A stretch of DNA of 35,196 nt. Origin: Marinospirillum alkaliphilum DSM 21637. Lineage in GTDB: Bacteria; Pseudomonadota; Gammaproteobacteria; Pseudomonadales; Halomonadaceae. The notes under the pieces are model-generated. The model saw only the letters and a program-made list of their open reading frames with translations. It had not been told where the DNA came from and did not search any database. The stretch is from NCBI RefSeq assembly GCF_900119735.1, contig NZ_FPJW01000015.1, positions 1 to 35,196 on the forward strand. The letters are read 5' to 3'. The translations under genes and the position numbers were made by a program. Of the stretch, positions 10,376 through 15,663 are shown one piece after another; the stretch's first letter is position 1; every line of letters begins with the position of its first letter.

Positions 10376-13270
10376 TCAACCGATCAGTGAATACGCCAGC
10401 AACCCACCCAGCAACGCCGCCACCCAGGCCAACAACAAACCCATTGCAAACCAGTTTTGCAGCTGCTTTTCCAGACCCGACAAACCGGTATAAAACGGAC
10501 GCTGCCAATGCACCCTGACCCACCGCCACATTCGGCTGTACCAGAACGACTGAGCCACTGCTGATTGACGCGGCGAACCCTGCACCCGCCAGTAACCCAG
10601 CAGCAACAGCAGCGCCACAACAGGCGGCAATGCACCTTTCAAAATGGCCTCGATTGAAAACATCTCTACCTGCAGCTGTGTCTGCGGCCAGAACCAGGCA
10701 TAACCGGCAGCCGACAACACCAGCAAACCCCAGGGCAACAACCAGGCTGGATGTAAACGGGCATCGGCAGTCGGTGGCAACAGCGCCAGCAACCATAACA
10801 GGCGACCCAGCAACAAGCTGGTGATCAGACTGCTGAGCAACAATAACCAGCCCGGCAAACCGGCAGCTGCAAAGCTCACATCCACGCCTTGCTTGACCAG
10901 CATGCCAGCCAACCAGGGCGCACCGGCCAGGGTTAATCCGGCCAGCAATACACCGGCCAGCAGCCAGACCGAATAACCTGCTGGCAGTGTTTTTTTCAAG
11001 CCAACCGCAAGAAACAGGCTGGCTTTAGCCAGGGCATGGGTTGCCGCCAGCAACACCAGACTCAACAAGGCCAGATCACGGGCCTGCTCCTGCAACATCA
11101 AACCGGCACCCAGCAACGCAGTCATCAGGCTCACCTGGCTGACACTGGACCAGGCCAGCAAGGTTTTCGGGTTGGACTGCAACAAACCACGCCACAGGGT
11201 ATAAAAAACCCCGATTAATCCCAGCAGCACCAACACCCACCCCCAACTCTCCAGACCGTCTTGACTGGCATGGATGCGTAAAGCACCCAATACACCGGCC
11301 TTGATCATCAAACCCGACAAAACGGCACTGGCGGGTGTGGGTGCCACCGGGTGCGCCACCGGCAGCCAGAAATGCACACCCAGCGCCCCCGCCTTGATGG
11401 CCAGCGCCAGCCCTATCGCCAGCAAACCAGCAGCAGGCAAGGTTTGTTCAGCCAGCGCAGTGAAGCTGAGCGAAAACCCGGCCAGCAGCCCAATGCCCAG
11501 AAAAAAAGCCAGTTCACCCACCAGGCTCATGCCCAGATAAACCCGACCGGCAGCCAAAGCTTCAGCATGACCCGGCTGAATCACCAACCACCACCCCAGA
11601 AAACTCAACAGGGCAAACACCAGGTAAAAACTCAGCAGGTCCTGCGCAAACAACAACAACAGGTTCAGCAGCCAACCCAGGGTCAGCAACACCAACAATG
11701 GCTTGCCGAGTCGCCAGCCCCACGACAGCAACAGTGCCACCGGCCAGACCAACAACACCGGCAACAGCAACACCTGACCATACCAGTCCAGCGCCGGTGG
11801 CGAAAACAGTTGCCAGCCCGGGCCACCCAGCACCAACACGCCCACCAGCCAGCTGGTCAACGCAGTGAACAGCGCCAGCCAGGACAATAAGCGGACTCGC
11901 CAGCTCACCCCATGCAGGGTTTGCCGCATCACTGCCGGTCGCCAGGCAAACTGCATCACCCGGAACAGATAAACCGCCGTCATCAGTGTTCCCACCAATA
12001 ACAGCATCACCGTCCATCCATCCTGTTGTTGCAGTGCGGCTTGCAGTAACTGCCATTTACCGGCGAAACCGGCTGTCGGCGGTGCACCCAGCAAACTGAT
12101 GCTGGCCAGCACAAATGCCAGCCAGGCCACAGCCAACTGACCACCGCTACCCTGGATCACCCGCAGCCGATCACTGGCAAAATGCAGCATCAACACACCC
12201 GCGACCATAAACAATGCTGCCTTGGCCAGGCCATGAGCCAGCAGAAACATCAGGCTGCCCTGCCCGGCCAGACTCAACCAGGGGTCAGACTGATCATCCA
12301 GCTGCAGGGACAAAAGCATCAGCGCAAAACCCAGTTGCGACAGGGTTGAGTAGGCCAGCACCAGCTTTAAACGCCTTTGCAGCAAGGCCTGCACACCACC
12401 CCACAGCAGGCAAAGGGTTGCCAGCAGGGTAAAAAATGGCTGGGCTGTTTCCAGCAAGGGTAAAAAGGGGCCCAGCCACAAGCGCCACAGCAGGTAGATG
12501 GCCAGCGCAATCACCACCGAAGACAACACCACACTGACCGGTGCCTGAGCCCTGGAGTGCGCTTCCGGCAGCCAGAAATGCAAGGGCACCACGGCCGCCT
12601 TTAATAACAGCCCCAGCGTCATGCAAACGGCTGCCACCTGCATCAATGCACCCTCCTGCAACCTTTCAGGCAACAGCAGCAGATCCAGTACACCGGTCTG
12701 GCCATAAATCAGCGCCACACCCAGCAGGTAAAGCAACGAAGCCAGTAACGACGCCATCAGGTATTGCATGGCAGCCTTGCCTTCGGGGTCATTCCGCGAC
12801 TGGGCCACCAGGCCCACGGCAGTCAGCGTCACCAGCTCAAGGGTCACATAAAGATTAAAAAGGTCGGCTGAAACCACCAGGGCATTCATGCCACCCCAGA
12901 GCAACCACCACAGCGGCCAGAAATAAGCCGAGCCACCCAGTGAAGGGCCAAACAGCCAGGCGGACAATGCCGCAGCAACACTGATCAGGTTGACGGTCAG
13001 CAACAACCAGGCAGCAGCCTGATCCAGCTGCCACTGAATGCCCAGTGGACTCGCCCAACCGCCCAGACTCAGCAACAAGGGTGACTCGGTGATCCCGGTT
13101 CCCGCCTGAAAGCTGACCAGGGTGGCCAGTAACATCACCGGTAAACCCAACCACAACACCACGCCCGGACGCACCAGACGCTGGAAGGACAACAGGGCCA
13201 ATAACAGCGGCCAACTGACCAGCAGGGACAGTGCCAGTGGCCAGCAGGATGACATCAAAATATCAATCAT
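10376..13270 (-). CDS. Fused double proton-antiporter subunit: two MrpD/NuoN-like domains in one polypeptide
   Basis: A 964-residue membrane protein made of two complete proton-translocating antiporter domains in tandem (about residues 1-490 and 500-964). Domain 1 has the TM5 motif ADLFNLYVTLELVTL (Glu145), TM7 Lys224 before PLHFWLPEAHSRAQAPVS, and LAHGLAKAALF (Lys350). Domain 2 has TM7 Lys626 before GVHFWLPVAHPVAPTPAS, TM8 MIKAGV (Lys657) and THALAKASLF (Lys749). Gapless alignment shows Ala255 in domain 1 where domain 2 has Lys657, and Ala553 in domain 2 where domain 1 has Glu145. A polar stretch then a last membrane helix follow domain 2. The start at 13270 overlaps mnhC by 8 bp (ATGATTGA). 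Known MrpD is about 500 residues and single-domain. Likely role: Na+(K+)/H+ exchange within an Mrp-like complex. Confidence 0.93.
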   Translation of the reverse strand: MIDILMSSCWPLALSLLVSWPLLLALLSFQRLVRPGVVLWLGLPVMLLATLVSFQAGTGITESPLLLSLGGWASPLGIQWQLDQAAAWLLLTVNLISVAAALSAWLFGPSLGGSAYFWPLWWLLWGGMNALVVSADLFNLYVTLELVTLTAVGLVAQSRNDPEGKAAMQYLMASLLASLLYLLGVALIYGQTGVLDLLLLPERLQEGALMQVAAVCMTLGLLLKAAVVPLHFWLPEAHSRAQAPVSVVLSSVVIALAIYLLWRLWLGPFLPLLETAQPFFTLLATLCLLWGGVQALLQRRLKLVLAYSTLSQLGFALMLLSLQLDDQSDPWLSLAGQGSLMFLLAHGLAKAALFMVAGVLMLHFASDRLRVIQGSGGQLAVAWLAFVLASISLLGAPPTAGFAGKWQLLQAALQQQDGWTVMLLLVGTLMTAVYLFRVMQFAWRPAVMRQTLHGVSWRVRLLSWLALFTALTSWLVGVLVLGGPGWQLFSPPALDWYGQVLLLPVLLVWPVALLLSWGWRLGKPLLVLLTLGWLLNLLLLFAQDLLSFYLVFALLSFLGWWLVIQPGHAEALAAGRVYLGMSLVGELAFFLGIGLLAGFSLSFTALAEQTLPAAGLLAIGLALAIKAGALGVHFWLPVAHPVAPTPASAVLSGLMIKAGVLGALRIHASQDGLESWGWVLVLLGLIGVFYTLWRGLLQSNPKTLLAWSSVSQVSLMTALLGAGLMLQEQARDLALLSLVLLAATHALAKASLFLAVGLKKTLPAGYSVWLLAGVLLAGLTLAGAPWLAGMLVKQGVDVSFAAAGLPGWLLLLSSLITSLLLGRLLWLLALLPPTADARLHPAWLLPWGLLVLSAAGYAWFWPQTQLQVEMFSIEAILKGALPPVVALLLLLGYWRVQGSPRQSAVAQSFWYSRMWRWVRVHWQRPFYTGLSGLEKQLQNWFAMGLLLAWVAALLGGLLAYSLIG

Positions 13271-13553
13271 GCTGACCCTGCTCCTTTTTGCGTCTGGCTT
13301 CCACACCATGCAGGATCAACGCCAGCGCCACTGCGGTGGTACTGACCGACACCACAATACCGGTCAGCACCATGGCATGAGGCACCGGGTCCAGTGCATC
13401 CGCCTTGCGTGCAACGGCCACCAGCAACAAAAACACGGCACTGCCCAGCACATTGATGGCCAGCAGGCGTCGCAGCAGGTTACCAGCAGTAAACAGACCG
13501 ATCATTGCCAGCCCACACAGGGCCACAGCCAGCAGTGCATAGATGCCGGTCAT
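13263..13553 (-). CDS. mnhC: Mrp-type antiporter subunit C (NuoK-like)
   Basis: A 96-residue inner-membrane protein with three hydrophobic helices, homologous to MnhC/MrpC and complex I NuoK. It shows the family signature DALDPVPHAMVLTGIVVSVS, matching the DPxPQALVLTAIVI pattern of MnhC, and LLRRLLAINVLGSAVFLLLV. The start at 13553 sits in an ATGA overlap with the preceding subunit gene. The C-terminus is highly charged (EARRKKEQGQHD). It presumably docks the antiporter-like domains in the Mrp complex. Confidence 0.92.
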   Translation of the reverse strand: MTGIYALLAVALCGLAMIGLFTAGNLLRRLLAINVLGSAVFLLLVAVARKADALDPVPHAMVLTGIVVSVSTTAVALALILHGVEARRKKEQGQHD

Positions 13554-14473
13554 CGGGCAGGCTCGCCATAGAGATAAAAAGCCATCAGCATCAGGGCAAT
13601 CGACAGGGCCGTACCCACCTCCACCAACAGGATCAGCTCCGCCGCCCAGGCGGGTGGTAGTTGCATGAAGGTGCCAGTCAGCAGCAAACCACCCAGCGCC
13701 AGCAACAAAAACAATGCCAGACCGGCAACCAGCAATAACCGCAACAACCACTGGCGGTCATCACGCTGCATCCAGTCCACCCCACCCGCCAGCAACGTCA
13801 GAATGCCACCGGCACCCAGCACCGCACCGGCAGGAAAAGCGCCGCCCGGAGCATGCGAGCCACGCCATAACAGATAAGCGGCCACCAGCAGAAACACCGG
13901 GTGCAACAGACTGGCCAGGGCCGGTAAACCCGGCAAGCGTTCCGCAGGTGCATGCGGCACCACCGCCGCCCCCAGTGACCAGCTGAAAATCACCGCAGAC
14001 AACATCACCGCCACCTCGAGCAAGGTGTCAAAGCCGCGCAGATTCAGCAATACCGCAGTGACCGGATGCGTCGCACCGGCACGCTCCAGCTCAGCATCCA
14101 CCGCCGCAGCCAGACCCGGTGCGGGCAGATCCCAGACAGCAATACCCAGCCATAAACACACCAACAGCGTTAGAGCCGCAGCACTTAAAAACAATGGAGA
14201 AGTCCAGGGTAAAACCCTGAATGAAGGAGAGTCGGTGTCATCCAGACGCCCCAGGGCCGAAAGAAACAGGGCACCGGTGACACCTGCCCCTATTGCAGCT
14301 TCGGCCAAAGCAATGTCAGGAGCCTGCAGACGTATCCAGACCAGTGAAATCAGCAGCCCGAACACCATGAAACTGACCACACCCCGAAACAGGCTGACAG
14401 CAAACAGGGTTTGCCAGGCCAGCCAGAACACTCCCAGTGCCAGCAGCAGATCAAACAGCAACACCAGCGTCAT
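13550..14473 (-). CDS. Fused MbhD(DUF4040)-MbhE-MnhB antiporter subunit (MrpA C-terminal part plus MrpB)
   Basis: A 307-residue membrane protein combining three modules. Residues 1-80 are a DUF4040/MbhD unit (FGLLISLVWIRLQAPDIALA then EAAIGAGVTGAL). Residues about 135-165 carry the MbhE/MrpA C-terminal motif TAVLLNLRGFDTLLEVAVML. Residues about 185-300 are MnhB-like (WRGSHAPGGAFPAGAVLGAG). The large NuoL-like antiporter half of MrpA is missing, so this is an A'B fusion of the kind seen in Mrp clusters with order E-F-G-A'B-C-D. It overlaps mnhG and mnhC by 4 bp at each end. The missing antiporter half may be compensated by the double-domain subunit downstream. Confidence 0.92.
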   Translation of the reverse strand: MTLVLLFDLLLALGVFWLAWQTLFAVSLFRGVVSFMVFGLLISLVWIRLQAPDIALAEAAIGAGVTGALFLSALGRLDDTDSPSFRVLPWTSPLFLSAAALTLLVCLWLGIAVWDLPAPGLAAAVDAELERAGATHPVTAVLLNLRGFDTLLEVAVMLSAVIFSWSLGAAVVPHAPAERLPGLPALASLLHPVFLLVAAYLLWRGSHAPGGAFPAGAVLGAGGILTLLAGGVDWMQRDDRQWLLRLLLVAGLALFLLLALGGLLLTGTFMQLPPAWAAELILLVEVGTALSIALMLMAFYLYGEPAR

Positions 14474-14814
14474 GGTGCATCCTCACTGTCCAGATGCAGG
14501 GGTTTCTGTTCACCAAGATGGGGTTCAATTCCCGCGGCATAAGCCGTTCCCGCCACCAGCGTGGCACCAATGCTGGATGCCATCAGCATCAACACCCAGA
14601 TCAACAGGTATTTCAGGGCCATTGCCAGACCCGGTGCCTGAAGCGCCAGCCCCATACAGACCAATCCCAACCCCAGGGTATCGGCCTTGGTCAGTGCATG
14701 CAGCCGCGCATAAACATCAGGAAAACGCAGCAAACCCAGGGTTCCAGCCACCAGAAACACAACGCCTGCTGTCACCATCAATTGACTGATCCACAACAGG
14801 ATTTCAGTGATCAT
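14470..14814 (-). CDS. mnhG: Mrp-type antiporter subunit G
   Basis: A 114-residue inner-membrane protein with three hydrophobic helices. The MnhG/PhaG signature RFPDVYARLHALTKADTLGL (31-50) is nearly perfect. The tail is hydrophilic. It overlaps mnhF by 11 bp upstream and the A'B gene by 4 bp (ATGA) downstream, consistent with stoichiometric translation of complex subunits. Confidence 0.94.
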   Translation of the reverse strand: MITEILLWISQLMVTAGVVFLVAGTLGLLRFPDVYARLHALTKADTLGLGLVCMGLALQAPGLAMALKYLLIWVLMLMASSIGATLVAGTAYAAGIEPHLGEQKPLHLDSEDAP

Positions 14815-15127
14815 GGTCGTCTGCCTGCGGCTGGTGTGATGGCTGTTTTTTTGACTGCTGATGACGCTTTAACACCGACCAGGCGCGGGTCGCAAAATTG
14901 GCTACCGCCATCGCCGCCAGCAGGGCAAACAGCAGCGCCACATCCACCAGGGCGTCACTGGCCGTTAGAACACCCAGTATCAAGACCAGTGCCAGACTGG
15001 AGGTGGAAATCAGCTCCACGGCCAACATCCGGTCTGCAGCCGTTAGCCCTTTAAGCACTCGCCACAAACCTACCGCTGCATTCAGCAACAGGATCAGCAT
15101 CAACAGATGGAACAGTGACGGGTTCAC
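14804..15127 (-). CDS. mnhF: Mrp-type antiporter subunit F
   Basis: A 107-residue membrane protein with three helices. ADRMLAVELISTSSLALVLI and LVDVALLFALLAAMAVANFA match MnhF/PhaF. The start is taken as GTG at 15127, overlapping the mnhE stop in GTGA; a longer reading into mnhE adds only polar, non-family residues. A histidine- and aspartate-rich tail (HQPQADDHDH) ends the protein. Confidence 0.9.
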   Translation of the reverse strand: MNPSLFHLLMLILLLNAAVGLWRVLKGLTAADRMLAVELISTSSLALVLILGVLTASDALVDVALLFALLAAMAVANFATRAWSVLKRHQQSKKQPSHQPQADDHDH

Positions 15128-15636
15128 AAGGCTTTCCTGATTGCCGGAGGAACGGGGTGACCGTAAAGATCGGCAACATCCACTTCCAACCGCTGCAAGG
15201 TAGTCAGAGTTGAGGGGCGATAGTTGAGAATGTGAATGTGCAGGCAATCCTGATCCGGCAAGGGACGAAGTGTCAGAGTACCGGGAATCAGGTTGATCAG
15301 GCTGGCCATGAACACCTGGGCTGGCCCTTCAGGAAGGCAACTCCAGGTGTAGTCAACCAACCGGGTGTTAAGGCGGTGTCTTGGGGTGGCTGCCAGTACA
15401 GCCACTTCCCAGCCACCACGTGCACTTAACAGCAGAAAACGAGGGATCAGGCGCAACAGGGGTAACCCGTGCCAGCGCCAGGGGATGCCCGGCAGCACCG
15501 GAGTCACCCAGGCCACCATCAGCACCAGAGGCACCCCCCACCACCAGGCGGTCACCTCACCCTGGGTCAGTATCCACCAGAGCAGTGCAAACAAAACGAC
15601 TCTTGCAGGGTAATACCGCCCGGGGCTGAGGCGCAT
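15124..15636 (-). CDS. mnhE: Mrp-type antiporter subunit E
   Basis: A 170-residue membrane-anchored subunit. Two hydrophobic segments near the N-terminus are followed by a soluble domain with the MnhE motif SLINLIPGTLTLRPL and HIHILNY. The ATG at 15636 has a strong GGAGG five bases upstream and is preferred over a GTG two codons earlier. It is the first gene of the antiporter cluster and starts 27 bp after the yebC-type stop, so the cluster may be transcribed with that gene. Confidence 0.92.
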   Translation of the reverse strand: MRLSPGRYYPARVVLFALLWWILTQGEVTAWWWGVPLVLMVAWVTPVLPGIPWRWHGLPLLRLIPRFLLLSARGGWEVAVLAATPRHRLNTRLVDYTWSCLPEGPAQVFMASLINLIPGTLTLRPLPDQDCLHIHILNYRPSTLTTLQRLEVDVADLYGHPVPPAIRKAL

Positions 15637-15663
15637 AACCACCTCCGATGCTGAATGACACCC

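Follow-up and report, generated by a model that had tools for sequence, protein, structure and literature searches.

In a 35,196-nt stretch of Marinospirillum alkaliphilum DSM 21637 DNA (contig NZ_FPJW01000015.1, positions 1 to 35,196; hereafter the window), the gene at 10376-13270 on the reverse strand encodes two antiporter domains, of the kind found in Mrp antiporters and respiratory complex I, in one polypeptide. The first half (D1) has Ala255 at the site of a lysine of transmembrane helix 8 (TM8); the second half (D3) has Ala553 at the site of the TM5 glutamate. Did fusion produce two half-pumps that move ions only as a pair, as a preliminary description of the locus had proposed? We think it probable that the protein is a conserved, asymmetric and rewired D1-D3 pair in an operon without MrpA, that the asymmetry was not made by fusion, and that D1 couples while D3 conducts. 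The charge seemingly lost from the second half appears on a neighbouring helix, and the pump, to judge from aligned sequences, looks rewired, not halved.

The frame is open without interruption over 977 codons (10376-13309, reverse strand) and contains two PF00361 (Proton_antipo_M) stretches scoring 162.0 and 82.9 bits, both above the curated cut-off of 21.5; the two-domain reading of the gene is upheld. PF00662 had no match at E ≤ 0.01 in either half. The ATG at 13270 is the better start: AAGGAG stands upstream of it, and the two closest relatives probably begin near the same place. Codon-by-codon numbering (E145, K224, A255, K350, A553, K626, K657, K749) agreed with every residue position reported earlier, including the TM7 lysines (224 and 626) and the later lysines (350 and 749) kept in both halves. 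In profile–profile alignments A553 of D3 falls on E145 of D1 and on E144 of both NuoM and NuoL; K657 of D3 falls on A255 of D1 and K265 of NuoM, A255 of D1 on T260 of NuoL, and K626 of D3 on K229 of NuoL. Nine residues ahead of the TM5 site both halves have an Asp that NuoM has as well, which leaves no register shift there; both alanines do occupy the positions first assigned to them. Features beyond the earlier description are an acid on TM6 of D3 (E586) and a TM12 Lys in both halves (K405 and K793).

What happened to the TM5 glutamate of D3? We compared 84 distinct D3 proteins: 54 from operons with three D-type subunits (D1, D2 and D3), five unfused ones from operons without D2, and 25 fused ones (15 duplicates and D3s at locus ends were removed, so 25 fused proteins are counted here rather than 26). 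None has the TM5 Glu (Ala 49, Thr 20, Ser 14, Val 1). At one TM6 column an acid is present in every one of the 84 (Glu 78, Asp 6), and 83 have the TM7 Lys. Elsewhere that column holds Ser in 25 D1 proteins and in the genome's three MrpD, Gly in 19 D2 proteins and three MrpA, Gly/Ser in NuoM/NuoN, and Asp178 in NuoL. Passages of an electron cryo-microscopy study of E. coli complex I place NuoL Lys229 3.3 Å from Asp178 and 4.8 Å from Glu144, in a double ion pair (PMC13324432); the K229/D178 pair also figures in passages of PMC9271201. The ion-pair acid of D3 looks to have been relocated to TM6, with the Asp178 arm kept and the Glu144 arm dropped, and the claim that D3 had lost this acid is not supported. 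Because unfused D3s of three-subunit operons also have the TM5 change, it is older than the fusion.

D3s from D2-less operons have Lys at TM7, TM11 and TM12 in 30 of 30 cases and at TM8 in 29 of 30; 12 of the 54 three-subunit D3s are without at least one of the TM8, TM11 and TM12 lysines (in four of the 12 the alignment is gapped at TM12). By these residues it is as if D3 were indispensable where D2 is absent. Six three-subunit D3s (L177, L240, L241, L247, L250, L253) are without most key lysines and are apparently a structural remnant.

The TM8 change of D1 is younger than the TM5 change of D3. We collected 134 D1 loci, 104 without duplicates (72 before D2, 26 fused, five before D3 and one with nothing after); most were found by a model from three fused proteins (E ≤ 1e-60, with two to three candidates scored per genome), and the sample leans to near relatives. 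The TM8 Lys is present in 70 of the 72 D1 proteins followed by D2 (Met and Thr in the other two). The 26 fused proteins have Ala (24) or Gly (2) there, and the unfused D1s of genomes G664 and G1005 have Ala. The Lys is absent from all 28 D2-less operons of the clade described below, two of them unfused; on the tree its loss within the clade reads as one event. Contrary to the idea that the asymmetry arrived with fusion, the unfused D1+D3 operons of G664 and G1005 already have it. Absence of D2 permits, but does not force, the loss, because in G1260, G1332 and G1165, whose fetched stretches show no D2, D1 kept its TM8 Lys; as a general cause it was rejected on the same grounds. These three loci (L179-L181) are a separate D2-less group, and D3 of L181 has Asn at TM8.

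Nor is it supported that D1 was left without a central lysine: K350, at the NuoL K342 position, and His346 are kept in 26 of 26 fused and 69 of 69 three-subunit rows (the distant rows L055, L056 and L058, within the 72 above, fall outside the 69). At the site of the TM8 Lys, E. coli NuoL has Thr; passages of PMC13324432 propose that its protons travel by way of His254, Lys342, His334, His338 and Lys399. D1 has Ala255 and no His at the His254 place, so its TM8 is left without Lys, His, Asp or Glu. A basic residue occurs at D1 position 240 in 25 of 26 fused proteins, both unfused clade operons (G664, G1005) and three of 69 three-subunit D1s. We do not claim that Arg240 compensates for the TM8 loss, although 27 of the 28 clade members are basic there: L142 and L150, the two three-subunit D1s without the TM8 Lys, have Gln and Ser at this position, and L045, L146 and L147 combine a basic residue with the TM8 Lys.

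Of 275 genomes of the family, 26 carry the D1-D3 fusion, with no internal stop; three of the 26 are single-contig genomes (G074, G092, G264), and G123 and G139 (the latter at a contig end) gave only partial matches. The contig scan gave only two Marinospirillum relatives, and the genomes that correspond to them, G003 and G004, are listed in the same genus. Both substitutions accompany the fusion in 26 of 26 cases (Ala or Gly at D1 TM8; Ala, Ser or Thr at D3 TM5). No match to both halves was obtained outside the family at E ≤ 1e-60 in 390 order, 369 class and 398 phylum genomes or at E ≤ 1e-50 in 289 genomes of another class (overlapping samples that include some family members), and a plasmid search gave no record covering 80% of the fused protein. 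In relatives D1, D2 and D3 follow one another in that order; some have three separate genes, others (G019, G047, G053, G422, G177, G185) a common frame for D2 and D3.

Two trees were built by quick searches, with support values from the Shimodaira–Hasegawa-like approximate likelihood ratio test (SH-aLRT) alone. In an 86-row tree, flagged for long NuoL/M/N branches, D1, D2 and D3 each formed one clade (support 100); D1 grouped with MrpD/NuoN (96), and D3 stood apart from all others. In the D1 tree the 26 fused rows formed one clade (99); together with the unfused G664 and G1005 they make up a clade of 28 rows (100) that is nested within those of three-subunit operons. The window protein has the marks of this clade: no Lys at D1 TM8, no Glu at D3 TM5, an acid on D3 TM6 and no D2 in the operon. 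Internal duplication is ruled out, as unfused orthologues exist for either half separately and the two fall in different clades; the halves are two different pre-existing subunits, a D1 and a D3, of a membrane-bound hydrogenase (MBH)-like Mrp operon. G664 and G1005 carry unfused D1+D3 operons without D2, and the history is best read as loss of D2 first and fusion later, as a single event.

At the join D3 is short of about two N-terminal helices, so its orientation would be kept. In 25 fused proteins 143-160 residues separate the TM12 Lys of D1 from the TM5 site of D3; in two unfused pairs the span is 85+128 and 91+139, where the second numbers are upper bounds as the D3 starts are unsure. Hydropathy gave 15 segments (one weak) in the D1 part, against 14 in the unfused D1 of G1005, and these run straight into segments matching TM3-TM4-TM5 of D3. 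The D3 half begins at about TM3 and ends, by hydropathy, with TM15, a less hydrophobic stretch and TM16.

Other joined frames were seen as well. D2 and D3 share one frame of ∼1080 aa in six genomes (L046, L047, L048, L162, L163, L165), a second kind of module fusion; L048 and L163-L165 have related D3s with Ala at TM8. A 791-aa frame (L182:6979-9351) has MrpE-, MrpF- and D1-like stretches in a row and is either a fusion or an assembly problem.

The fused gene comes last of six in an MrpA-less, MBH-like Mrp operon with the order E-F-G-(MbhD+MnhB)-C-fusion (Table 1). It encodes the sole antiporter-type subunit there, D2 being absent; the B-, C-, E-, F- and G-type subunits are all present (PF04039, PF00420, PF01899, PF04066 and PF03334). 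No large MrpA subunit with its NuoL-like N-terminal half occurs in the operon; three MrpA-sized frames lie elsewhere in the genome. Among ten open reading frames (ORFs) scanned around the operon we found no hydrogenase or redox module, and of the window genes beyond the operon, none was met again in more than two of 13 loci. The C protein of this operon type has Ser at the MrpC His column in 13 of 14 aligned cases (window included) and Ala in L160; canonical MrpC of the same genome (L008) has His. We infer that this column is the cation-site His of canonical MrpC (His37 in passages of PMC7419157). With Ser, or Ala in L160, in place of that His, the cation site may differ.

PF00361 occurs at 11 places in the genome (22 contigs, 3.1 Mb, 100% complete by the genome table): six frames on contigs C10/C11 (three of MrpA size, three of MrpD size), three on C19 and two in the window, which leaves none for NuoL/M/N of complex I. 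There are what look like five Mrp-type operons (genome G000, contigs C6, C10, C11 and C19). The one on C19 is a three-subunit operon, E-F-G-AB-C-D1-D2-D3, so that one organism holds a three-module and a fused operon in which coupling ratio could be compared with module number.

How might the rewired pair work? The modules would stand in line C-D1-D3, like NuoK-N-(M)-L. In the Mrp model set out in passages of PMC7419157, adjacent modules are coupled through Glu5/Lys7 of the one and Lys12 of the other, Lys8 provides the link to the cytoplasm, MrpD Glu5 lies beside the cation, and a two-module complex takes in two protons per cycle. D1 would sit at the cation site with its TM5 Glu/TM7 Lys coupling pair (E145/K224) and TM12 Lys retained; having no TM8 route to the cytoplasm, it would act mainly as coupler and as relay through K350 and K405. 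D3 would be the distal module, in which K626, facing K405 of D1, pairs with Glu586 as NuoL K229 does with D178, and K657 would offer the main proton route, gated by K626-E586. The ion pair is taken as a gate, not a path, because Glu-to-Gln exchange lowers the barrier (passages of PMC11496545). Fewer protons per cation would be expected than in canonical Mrp or the three-subunit form.

A further observation concerns the D3 tail, counted from the TM12 Lys to the stop. Where D2 is absent (30 operons) it has 163-181 residues, with a median of 168; for the 54 three-subunit operons the median is 192, and the range is 167-212 once the eight tails of ≤121 are set aside. The tails of G1260, G1332 and G1165, which the D1 tree places outside the clade, measure 167, 168 and 167 residues, and those of three-subunit operons from the class sample around G1165 (L257-L259) have 207, 198 and 209. 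The Mann–Whitney p of 1.9e-12 excludes the eight three-subunit tails of ≤121 and ignores relatedness, the D2-less operons being two groups by descent. About 24 residues of helix span ∼36 Å, near one module width. The ∼24-residue shortening without D2 suggests that the tail may be a lateral-helix ruler. As described in passages of PMC7419157, the Mrp complex is braced by MrpA helix HL between TM15 and TM16, similarly to complex I. Taken further, Mrp-type systems could change gear by the number of complete modules in a row, three (D1-D2-D3), two (canonical Mrp) or effectively one (D1-D3 clade), with the H+/cation ratio following the count and the lateral stretch of D3 about one module width shorter without D2; we offer this as a tentative idea with a low chance of being right.

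Could the substitutions instead reflect neutral drift under redundancy, D1 having TM8 and TM11 lysines and D3 a second acid, so that one of each was lost with mechanism and stoichiometry unaffected? The invariance of K350/H346 in the 26 fused and 69 three-subunit D1s, the Thr of E. coli NuoL and the repeated loss of charges among three-subunit D3s would all fit. Yet the lost sites remain small and neutral, with Ala/Gly in each of the 26 fused D1s, even though the proteins of other genera share only ∼41-50% identity with the window protein, and position 240 is basic in 27 of 28 clade members, though also in three three-subunit D1s keeping Lys; we regard drift as unlikely. The proposal that fusion subfunctionalised the halves, each without a residue that the other keeps and ions moved only by the pair, was right about the asymmetry, which recurs in 26 of 26 fused proteins, and draws further support from the nearly complete lysines of D2-less D3s (30 of 30, TM8 29 of 30) next to 12 of 54 three-subunit D3s that are incomplete. 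Its account of origin is not supported: the D3 change is common to all unfused D3s examined, including the 54 of three-subunit operons, with the TM6 acid alongside, and the D1 change was already in unfused operons. Isolated complex I antiporter modules, moreover, conduct protons alone (passages of PMC11496545), and as a whole we find this proposal improbable. That assembly or annotation joined two genes has found no support and is refuted by recurrence in 26 genomes of 275, three of them single-contig; the frame has no internal stop, and the junction codons are under purifying constraint (dN 0.51, dS 1.76, window versus L063; nonsynonymous and synonymous rates, dS near saturation).

Several observations weigh against the rewired-pair model and its extension. 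D2-less G1260, G1332 and G1165, outside the class, retain the D1 TM8 Lys, and two three-subunit D1s (Met, Thr) are also without it. The C subunit is without the canonical MrpC His. In passages of PMC11496545, the ion-pair Glu-to-Gln exchange in isolated complex I modules lowers the barrier to lateral proton transfer and does not block it. AlphaFold2 models were poor (mean pLDDT, the predicted local distance difference test, 38.6 for the whole protein with 3 rows and 52.6 for D3 with 6 rows) and too weak for distances, so the module line-up and the K626-E586 pair rest on alignment; Foldseek with the D3 model returned mostly complex I/Mrp antiporter chains, ND5 first, with TM-scores of ∼0.3-0.4, and was not used as evidence. 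As for the ruler, eight of 54 three-subunit tails have only 78-121 residues, three others (167, 174, 174) lie within the D2-less range, and the tail stretch is poorly conserved and only moderately amphipathic.

Table 1. Features of the fused antiporter gene and its operon (window coordinates; support is SH-aLRT)
Feature	Position	Strand	Remarks
Fused D1-D3 antiporter subunit	10376..13270	(-)	964 aa; 977 aa from upstream ATG at 13309
D1 half, residues 1-486, MrpD/NuoN-like	11813..13270	(-)	PF00361 2.4e-47; groups with MrpD/NuoN, support 96
D1 Glu145, TM5 acid, retained	12836..12838	(-)	
D1 Lys224, TM7 Lys	12599..12601	(-)	
D1 Arg240, between TM7 and TM8	12551..12553	(-)	
D1 Ala255, at TM8 Lys position	12506..12508	(-)	NuoM K265; NuoL T260
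D1 His346	12233-12235	(-)	NuoL His338 position
D1 Lys350	12221..12223	(-)	aligned with NuoL Lys342
D1 Lys405, TM12 Lys	12056..12058	(-)	
D3 half, residues 487-964	10376..11812	(-)	PF00361 3.1e-23; D3 clade, support 100
D3 Ala553, at TM5 Glu position	11612..11614	(-)	
D3 Glu586, TM6	11513..11515	(-)	aligned with NuoL Asp178; putative ion-pair partner of Lys626
D3 Lys626, TM7 Lys	11393..11395	(-)	
D3 Lys657, TM8 Lys	11300..11302	(-)	
D3 Lys749	11024..11026	(-)	NuoL K342 position
D3 Lys793, TM12 Lys	10892-10894	(-)	
MrpC/NuoK-like subunit	13263..13751 (ORF as listed)	(-)	PF00420 at residues 71-148; true start probably downstream, near 13560
MbhD+MnhB subunit, standing for MrpA C-terminus and MrpB	13550..14473	(-)	PF13244, PF04039
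MrpG-like subunit	14470..14814	(-)	PF03334
MrpF-like subunit	14804..15247 (ORF as listed)	(-)	PF04066 at residues 71-119
MrpE-like subunit	15124..15642	(-)	PF01899

How antiporter-like modules of Mrp and complex I couple, and which of their residues are indispensable, is disputed. The present family offers a natural experiment: a D3 without the textbook TM5 Glu and with a TM6 acid in 84 of 84 proteins, a D1 without the textbook TM8 Lys in 28 of 28, and a covalent two-module unit. Our literature search, which mostly did not extend to subscription journals, found no account of such a D-D fusion or TM6 relocation in the search results and passages it covered.

With canonical Mrp (CPA3) of groups 1 and 2 (6z16, 7qru, 7d3u) the fused system shares the B-, C-, E-, F- and G-type subunits, an MrpD-type antiporter domain and the key positions of the proposed Glu5/Lys7/Lys12 coupling points. 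It differs in having no MrpA antiporter module, the MrpA C-terminus standing alone as MbhD joined to MnhB; in two D-type domains in one chain, D1 without the TM8 Lys and D3 with its acid on TM6; and in a C subunit without the MrpC His. Group 3 Mrp operons with duplicated D genes (mrpCDCDEFGBB, mrpCD1D2EFGAB; passages of PMC5703873) likewise have more than one D gene, whereas here the order is E-F-G-AB-C-D and the D genes are of distinct types, two of them fused. The ion-translocating module of MBH and membrane-bound sulfane reductase (6cfw) has a stand-alone MbhD-type subunit in common with the fused operon, and its chain 6cfw_H is the best PDB match of the fused protein, but no hydrogenase or redox gene was found beside the operon in the ORFs scanned. 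The NuoK-N-M-L arm of complex I would have the same linear row behind a K/C subunit, and NuoL resembles D3 in the TM6 acid and in two last hydrophobic helices set apart. Unlike complex I, the fused system has no redox arm; D3 is without the acid that follows directly on the TM12 Lys in NuoL (D400), and its clade lies apart from NuoL/MrpA.

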